A DNA stretch of 64,000 nt from Branchiostoma floridae (lineage: Eukaryota; Chordata; Leptocardii; Amphioxiformes; Branchiostomatidae), in assembly GCF_000003815.2 (NCBI RefSeq), contig NC_049990.1, forward strand, positions 16,466,945 through 16,530,944. Direction: 5' to 3'. Of this stretch, positions 53,397 to 54,739 are shown piece after piece. Below the pieces are notes generated by a model. It had not been told where the DNA came from. It saw only the letters and a list, made by a program, of their open reading frames with translations, and made no database searches. The first letter of the stretch is position 1. Every line of letters starts with the position of its first letter. A program made the translations under genes and the position numbers.

Positions 53397-53619
53397 ATGC
53401 ATCTCTTCGTACAAAGCAAGAAAAACTACGGACTTCTGGGGATCACCGGAGAGGAGACCATCCGGAACATCAAGGAGCGAGTCTTCAAGCTGGAGGGTCT
53501 GCCCGTGGAACAACAGATCCTGTACTACTCCGGCAAACCGCTAGAGGACGCTGCTACGCTGCTCGGCTGTGGGATACCGGATATGGGGACACTGGACGTG
53601 AATGTGCGCACACGTGGAG
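53397..53619 (+). CDS. Exon 1: FUBI-like domain
   Basis: 74 codons plus one base; the terminal Gly codon is split across the intron (donor GTAAAG). The ubiquitin beta-grasp pattern is complete. The inverted copy at 60786-60564 differs by one residue (Asn24 to Asp). Confidence 0.92.
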
Positions 53620-54739
53620 GTAAAGTGTTCTGACTTTTGTCTTTTGTCTCTGAACGTTGTAAGTGTTGGTGACTGGTATTAAATTCTTCCTAGTTCTTGC
53701 TTTACGACAAGCTAATATATCTAAGAATAATCGTCCAAGGTATTGTTGAAAGCTATCAATCATTACTTTTTAATGCACAGCAAAAGCATACTGTTTTACT
53801 CTAATGTCCATGGGTTCCGCCATAAAGATTTGTGACGTCATAGGTCGGCCATCTTGCTTATCACATGTTGTCACAGCGAAATGTTATGACACAGTTTAAG
53901 ATAGGACGATAAGGGTTATTTTCAACGAGCCCTTTGTTTATTGTCGACTAACCTTTAAAACAGTCAAAAAACACCCGACAATATCTTCCAAATATCATTA
54001 AGGGTGTATGTTTTATATTTCTTAATTTTAATCTCCAGTTTGTTTGTTTATTAGGAGCCACGTACAAGGTGACCTTCAAGACCCCGGATGGAGATAAGAC
54101 GATTGAGTGTCCCGAAGACGAATTTCTTTTGGACGTAGCTGAAGAAGTAAGCCTTTTATCCATTCATCACACTTGTGACTTGAAGAAATGTTACAAAAAA
54201 ATACACTGGCATCAGTTAAGTAACATATGCATATGTAACAAATGAAGTTACATAGAGAGACGGGCGTTATAAACTTCCTACCACGTTTGACCAATTGCTG
54301 ACGTCACGTATCCGCAAGATCACGTGTTAATTAGATCACGTATTTGTAACTCTCGCGAGTTTACCTTCTGAAGTGATTGATCCTGAAGAGTGGTCGTTTA
54401 AATTAATTTGATTCGTATATTCATTTGTGTTGGGAAAAAGTTTGTACTATAAAGTTTTATACAGTAACTGTTGCAACATGAAGGTGGTGATGACAGAAAT
54501 GATTACAATGAAAATCATGACCCTTTTTCCAAATGCAGAAAGACGTGGACATCCCCTACGACTGCCGGGCGGGTGCATGTTCCACCTGTACCGGTAAGAT
54601 CGTGTCTGGCACCGTGGACCAGAGCGACCAGACCTTCCTGTCCGACGATCAAATCGCAGCAGGATACGTCCTGACCTGCGTGGCCCGCCCAACCAGCGAC
54701 CTGGTCATCACTACCCACCAAGAGGAGTCCCTCTACTAA
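53397..54739 (+). CDS. FUBI-like ubiquitin domain fused to plant-type [2Fe-2S] ferredoxin
   Basis: Exons 53397-53619, 54055-54146 and 54539-54739 join in frame (phases 1 and 0) to give 171 residues. Residues 1-75 are ubiquitin-like: M-H-L-F-V start, [12 protein letters not shown] and T-L-D-V as in FUBI, ending V-R-T-R-G-G. Residues 76-171 form a full 96-residue plant-type ferredoxin: [23 protein letters not shown] and L-T-C-V-A. Its cysteines are ferredoxin residues 39, 44, 47 and 77, with Phe63 and Glu92 (reductase contact) kept. Ubiquitin fusions ending in Gly-Gly are normally cleaved by deubiquitinases, which would release a one-electron carrier lacking any plastid or mitochondrial signal. 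Its redox partner in an animal is unknown. The ATG is 13 bp into an exon with an upstream CAG acceptor. Confidence 0.93.
54055..54146 (+). CDS. Exon 2: N-terminal half of the ferredoxin
   Basis: 92 bp after a TTATTAG acceptor. The first two bases finish Gly75, then [12 protein letters not shown] starts the ferredoxin. It ends at a phase-0 GTAAGC donor after V-A-E-E. Confidence 0.92.
54539..54739 (+). CDS. Exon 3: iron-sulphur loop and C-terminus of the ferredoxin
   Basis: 67 codons including TAA at 54737-54739, after acceptor AAATGCAG. It carries all four cluster cysteines and the [12 protein letters not shown] tail typical of photosynthetic ferredoxins. Confidence 0.93.

Follow-up and report, generated by a model that had tools for sequence, protein, structure and literature searches.

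The amphioxus genome carries a three-exon gene, here called copy A, in which a FUBI-like ubiquitin-like domain (UBL) is joined to a complete plant-type [2Fe-2S] ferredoxin. The anatomy of this fusion gene and the identities of its two domains are confirmed. We consider it probable that the whole account given below holds, namely that copy A is a real animal gene, that its FUBI-like head derives from the duplicated 5' half of FAU, and that its product is cut to free a ferredoxin that feeds an oxygenase. In this reading the fusion is a precursor of the UBL-carrier type, with a passenger of a new sort. The gene lies in a stretch of 64,000 nucleotides (the window; bases 16466945-16530944) on contig C12, which measures 22.97 Mb in a genome of 513 Mb; positions below are those of the window. 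The open-licence literature was searched for the fusion, for plant-type ferredoxins in animals and for choline monooxygenase (CMO) in amphioxus, and the fusion was undescribed in titles and abstracts among the matches listed. Automatic annotation of the same architecture may already exist in protein databases.

Anatomy of the fusion gene and identity of its halves

Copy A has GT/AG borders throughout and intron phases that fit (phase 1 for intron 1, phase 0 for intron 2), and its three exons on the forward strand add up to 516 nt encoding 171 amino acids. The gene model proposed in an earlier note, with three exons, matching phases and 171 residues, was thus re-derived from the sequence. Its parts are as follows.

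53360-53396, forward strand: probable 3' splice site and 5' UTR stub, with ttacag ending at 53383 and then 13 nt to the ATG (predicted from the sequence)
53397-53619, forward strand: exon 1 of copy A, 223 nt, donor GGAG/gtaaag; FUBI-like UBL residues 1-74 and the first base of Gly75
53620-54054, forward strand: intron 1 of copy A, phase 1, splitting the second Gly codon of Gly-Gly
54055-54146, forward strand: exon 2 of copy A, 92 nt, acceptor attag/GAGCC, donor GAA/gtaagc; N-terminal part of the ferredoxin
54539-54739, forward strand: exon 3 of copy A, 201 nt, acceptor gcag/AAAGAC, stop TAA; C-terminal part of the ferredoxin

All four cluster cysteines (CRAGACSTC and LTC) are encoded by exon 3. 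At the junction of the two halves RTRGG stands directly before ATYKV with no linker, and no transit peptide precedes the UBL. Homology to a second, inverted copy (copy B, described below) starts at the stretch with the acceptor and UTR stub.

A plastid-style ferredoxin in animal DNA, which had been thought unexpected when the locus was first noticed, proved to be a genuine part of this genome. Contamination is unlikely because the locus sits on a contig of 22.97 Mb, and with introns in the gene and related copies alongside, both contamination and misassembly were rejected.

The first 75 residues match the Pfam ubiquitin family over its cut-off (5.2e-14), and FUBI-eS30 chains in the PDB match them from the first residue (best of these, E 4.6e-14). 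In the PDB ranking polyubiquitin chains stand above the FUBI-eS30 chains because the scores of their repeats add up, and single ubiquitins stand below. The UBL is 47% identical to the genome's own FUBI (73.2 bits), as against 37% to its own ubiquitin (48.1 bits), which bears out the reading of this half as FUBI-like. It lies outside the eS30 gene: its passenger is a ferredoxin and the genome's FAU is found on contig C10, and the UBL is therefore FUBI-derived and not FAU itself.

Among the marks of FUBI, copy A retains Phe4 as well as the Pro typical of FUBI (Pro47 in human Fubi), Ile replaces Val40, and Tyr stands where ubiquitin has Ile44. The tail reads VRTRGG, as against RXLGG of FUBI, and in sequence its RTRGG appears to resemble ubiquitin more than typical FUBI. 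According to PMC10611586, the features of FUBI include the RXLGG tail, Val40 and Pro47, the tail being reported there as strictly conserved in the 156 species inspected, and Phe4 and the FUBI-type Pro are tied to USP36 contact. The genome's own FAU (L027:5740-7285) has an RLRGG tail, unlike this reported conservation.

The last 96 residues had been described as a complete photosynthetic-type ferredoxin, and family models agree. The product matches Pfam Fer2 over its cut-off (4.6e-24) and the NCBIfam plant-type ferredoxin model TIGR02008 at 7.8e-45, with 150.6 bits against a cut-off of 81.15, over positions 1-97 of 97. The model TIGR02007 (fdx_isc), which we take to stand for the adrenodoxin type (FDX1/FDX2), gives only 19.5 bits against a cut-off of 132.1, placing the product outside that type. 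Solved ferredoxins match the second half with a best E of 1.7e-44, and the closest are named chloroplastic or cyanobacterial, the cyanobacterial identity of some being presumed by us. Of the structures used here, we take 3p63 and 3av8 to be from cyanobacteria, 7wzn from a green alga, 1a70 from spinach, and 1gaq, 6yac, 6b03 and 1pfd from land plants.

In an alignment with 26 reference rows, the four cysteine ligands are kept in family spacing. Copy A retains 24 of the 28 ferredoxin positions that are invariant in these rows (a count that set aside loci L045-L047, L049 and L050-L052), and a Ser to Asp change beside the first cysteine is among the four that differ.

Prokaryote genomes yielded 25 ferredoxin loci, 19 of them with cyanobacterial titles. 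The best, cyanobacterial L029, is 75% identical to the ferredoxin of copy A; the figures for the chloroplast ferredoxins 7wzn and 1a70 are 68% and 54%. In a tree of 32 rows, from which the short matches L050-L052 among the 25 prokaryote loci were set aside, the window sequence has no well-supported neighbour (the bootstrap had not settled), and the branches that are well supported, one of five land-plant rows and one of L034 with L036, exclude it. A named donor is thus not supported. The ferredoxin may have been transferred from a cyanobacterium or from an alga, or it may have been present of old and lost in other animals.

On viral contigs nine pattern matches gave one confirmed locus (L026), a ferredoxin match to query residues 78-162 on a contig of 29,650 bases; the contig of the Phycisphaerae locus L045 has this length as well, and the two are perhaps one record. 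A coral paper (PMC3750612) lists under plant-derived proteins a 2Fe-2S ferredoxin, which may or may not be of the plant type.

Proposed derivation of the head from FAU

The genome's FAU (FUBI-eS30; L012/L027) has a phase-1 intron in the second Gly codon, GGA G/gt ... ag/GT AAG, and intron 1 of the fusion interrupts the same codon in the same phase, GGA G/gt ... ag/GA GCC. An acceptor lies 7 bases upstream of the ATG in FAU, and the acceptor-like ttacag of the fusion lies 13 bases upstream. The shared intron position and acceptor suggest exon shuffling through FAU's own intron. A duplicated 5' half of FAU, carrying the 5' UTR, the FUBI coding part and the intron that splits the last Gly codon, would have landed upstream of a ferredoxin segment of cyanobacterial or algal type, and splicing would then join FUBI to the ferredoxin in place of eS30. 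FAU has an extra phase-0 intron inside FUBI that is missing from the fusion UBL, and therefore a loss or gain of an intron must be added to a simple copy.

The likeness to FAU extends to the layout of the protein, an N-terminal FUBI with a C-terminal Gly-Gly and a passenger directly behind it, in addition to the intron and the acceptor just described. The fusion differs from FAU in that its passenger is a [2Fe-2S] electron carrier and not a ribosomal protein, in the length of its UBL (75 residues against 74, at the 47% identity given above) and in the lack of an intron within it. With the ubiquitin-ribosomal protein fusions RPS27A and RPL40 it shares a cleavable N-terminal UBL on an unrelated protein, as these are presented in PMC8354635, whereas its own UBL is FUBI-like and its passenger is a redox protein. 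From the plant-type ferredoxins of TIGR02008, to which it is alike in the full-length match and the four cluster cysteines, it differs in bearing introns, in lying on an animal chromosome behind a UBL, in the lack of a transit peptide and in the change of 4 of 28 invariant positions.

If this derivation is true, exon shuffling would here be visible at the level of a single codon, an electron carrier having taken the place of a ribosomal protein across one intron that stayed where it was, and UBL-carrier fusions would not be confined to ribosomal proteins. Besides the origin by exon shuffling we infer that copy A is transcribed, and that its product is cleaved, acquires its cluster and resides in the cytosol; the cytosolic place is predicted because no transit peptide lies ahead of the UBL.

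Candidate partners of the ferredoxin

The fusion product is most likely a precursor. The ferredoxin freed from it would pass electrons to an oxygenase, for which the best candidates are the choline-monooxygenase-like Rieske enzymes of the same genome, a partnership that is speculative and drawn by analogy with plants. Plant CMO takes electrons from reduced ferredoxin, and the animals for which PMC6157903 reports CMO sequences are restricted to an acorn worm and two species of amphioxus.

The genome contains six PF00848 matches, spread over four places (L053, L054/L058, L055/L056 and L057), and one of the matches holds a TGA. The Rieske domain, CRHH...CYHGW, is present at one of these places, the one that was scanned for the N-terminal part. 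The models and structures nearest to the Rieske pieces are glycine-betaine and carnitine monooxygenases and ring-hydroxylating dioxygenases, all of them below the NCBIfam cut-offs. These genes are on contigs C3 and C5, other than that of the fusion. As for further clients of ferredoxin, the genome gave 0 matches to NIR_SIR_ferr and 0 to bilin reductase, and a weak exon-by-exon search of it found no plant-type ferredoxin-NADP reductase at E <= 0.01, PF00175 matching one place only.

The most specific form of the proposal is that a chordate put the FUBI head from its own FAU gene in front of a ferredoxin taken from a cyanobacterium or an alga, and that the cytosolic ferredoxin freed by a deubiquitinase feeds CMO-like Rieske enzymes whose distribution among animals is patchy and transfer-like. 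The two would then be an animal equivalent of the ferredoxin-CMO couple of chloroplasts, serving glycine betaine or a related osmolyte. In this full detail the proposal is unlikely to be right. As in the plant couple, a plant-type ferredoxin and CMO-like Rieske oxygenases occur together in one genome here (PMC6157903). The amphioxus pairing, by contrast, is hypothetical. We know of no UBL fusion in the plant couple. If the proposal is true, the animal has gained a plant-type ferredoxin in its cytosol, in addition to the adrenodoxin type of its mitochondria, together with an electron donor for animal Rieske oxygenases.

The partner might instead be some other oxygenase, such as an enzyme of the Neverland/DAF-36 type (cholesterol 7-desaturase) or a P450, and this we regard as doubtful while giving it more weight than the other alternatives considered here. 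C-termini of the KshA_C Rieske type are indeed found at two further places in the genome (L063 and L064). Neverland-type enzymes, however, are widespread in animals for which no such ferredoxin is known. The distribution of CMO among animals is, in contrast, patchy as reported in PMC6157903.

Related copies, constraint and predicted processing

Copy A is accompanied in the window by further copies and remnants of the same gene, all on the reverse strand.

60564-60786, reverse strand: exon 1 of copy B, 74 of 75 UBL residues identical to copy A
60043-60134, reverse strand: exon 2 of copy B
59213-59724, no strand: run of 512 N at the expected place of copy B exon 3 (corresponding to 54466-54976 of copy A)
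57261-57434, reverse strand: lone ferredoxin exon 3, truncated by nine codons at its start and hence without the first cysteine
47295-47428, reverse strand: FUBI fragment of copy C, residues 26-69, 94.8% identical to copy A in DNA
46442-46534, reverse strand: ferredoxin exon 2 of copy C
45419-45619, reverse strand: ferredoxin exon 3 of copy C, decayed, with an in-frame TGA
35834-35893, reverse strand: remnant of ferredoxin exon 2 of copy D, its frame broken further on
35101-35301, reverse strand: ferredoxin exon 3 of copy D, sharing the in-frame TGA of copy C

Copy B nearly duplicates copy A in inverted orientation, at 94% identity over 1,087 columns from before exon 1 to past exon 2. The order of UBL followed by ferredoxin recurs in copy B, where exons 1 and 2 are readable, and in the decayed copy C. 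Of the nine matches of a genome-wide Fer2 search, four fall in the window (the third exons of copies A, C and D and the lone exon 3), and the other five, on contigs C11 and C17, are taken to be putative xanthine dehydrogenase or aldehyde oxidase.

Copies A and B are carried by a large imperfect palindrome (53382-56389 and 57796-60801), whose arms are 94-99% alike, identity peaking towards the centre and over part of intron 2. This pattern suggests recent inverted duplication or gene conversion. The FUBI fragment of copy C shows the 94.8% identity to copy A listed above, though the other aligned parts of copy C show 64-77%, and gene conversion is perhaps behind the difference.

The copies differ in the constraint that they display. 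Exon 1 of copies A and B is separated by 6 silent changes and 1 replacement (P = 0.0015 against neutrality), and exon 1 of copy A differs from the copy C fragment by 5 silent changes and 2 replacements (P = 0.015), the numbers being small in both comparisons. In exon 2 there are 1 silent and 3 replacement changes between A and B. For exon 3, dN/dS of copy A is 0.45 against the lone exon and 1.03 and 0.92 against copies C and D, both of which are decayed; C and D themselves differ by 3 silent and 9 replacement changes (P = 0.63), a neutral rate. The ferredoxin exons of copy A thus show little or no constraint. Because copy A keeps 24 of the 28 invariant positions, fewer than the decayed copy C, which keeps 26 of 28 against the same 26 reference rows, its ferredoxin has diverged along a line of its own, through either relaxed constraint or adaptation. 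We considered and rejected the possibility that the TGA common to copies C and D is decoded as selenocysteine or read through, since exon 3 differs neutrally between them and the exon 2 frame of copy D is broken.

Copy A might, on this evidence, be the last readable open copy of a dying gene family, barely or no longer expressed and now without function, which we judge improbable. The decay of copies C and D, with their neutral exon 3 and common TGA, the truncation of the lone exon 3, and in copy A the scant or absent constraint that exons 2 and 3 show in comparison with the other copies, together with the loss of 4 of 28 invariant positions, are all what such a family would leave behind. Copy A is nevertheless fully open, has good splice sites and all four ligands, and its exon 1 is constrained between A and B.

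With copy A taken as a functional gene, its product would be processed at the junction. A deubiquitinase of the USP36/USP16 type, able to process the tails of FUBI or ubiquitin, would cut after Gly-Gly and release a free UBL and a soluble cytosolic [2Fe-2S] ferredoxin starting Ala-Thr-Tyr-Lys-Val. Such a cut would leave ATYKV at the N-terminus, and the solved ferredoxin 3p63 begins ATYKVT. Cleavage of FUBI-eS30 needs the Gly-Gly and depends on USP36 (PMC8354635), and a ubiquitin-like tail such as RTRGG could widen the set of cutting enzymes, as is suggested in PMC10611586. The tail VRTRGG in place of RXLGG, and the Tyr at the position of ubiquitin Ile44, do make processing by the usual enzymes uncertain, and the fusion could be stable, with the UBL staying attached as a docking or targeting module and the ferredoxin acting at a cellular place that the UBL defines. 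This seems quite improbable: the Gly-Gly and a basic tail are kept, the genome's own FUBI tail is also RLRGG, and the ferredoxin starts right behind the Gly-Gly with the first residues of 3p63 and no linker.

Read through its donor, exon 1 encodes a UBL that ends GGKVF-stop in copy A (53397-53633) or GGEVF-stop in copy B (60553-60786), and retention of intron 1 would thus yield the precursor of a free UBL. That the UBL and the ferredoxin are separate genes side by side, the former being exon 1 with its retained intron (a free UBL ending Gly-Gly-Lys-Val-Phe in copy A) and the latter made from another start, is very improbable despite these read-through frames in A and B, as no ATG lies in the open stretch ahead of ATYKV, the exons fit in phase across both introns, the junction intron sits where FAU has its own, and copies B and C repeat the exon order.

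Elsewhere in the window, 9 of the 57 open frames of at least 95 residues were scanned against Pfam; 3 of the 9 matched a family, none of which bears on the function of the fusion. An open frame of 1000 codons at 39968-42967 contains 132-bp tandem repeats encoding tetratricopeptide repeats, with the nephrocystin-3 TPR model just below its cut-off and the DUF294 nucleotidyltransferase model just above. Identical translations are found 1285 bases apart at 24818-25746 and 26103-27031, and this pair (within 24818-27031) is the product of either tandem duplication in the very recent past or faulty assembly. A second pair of identical translations lies 2070 bases apart, at 884-1225 and 2954-3295, and the one that was scanned resembles a C-type lectin just below the cut-off. 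The frame at 29636-30850 encodes the reverse transcriptase of a retroelement (PF00078).
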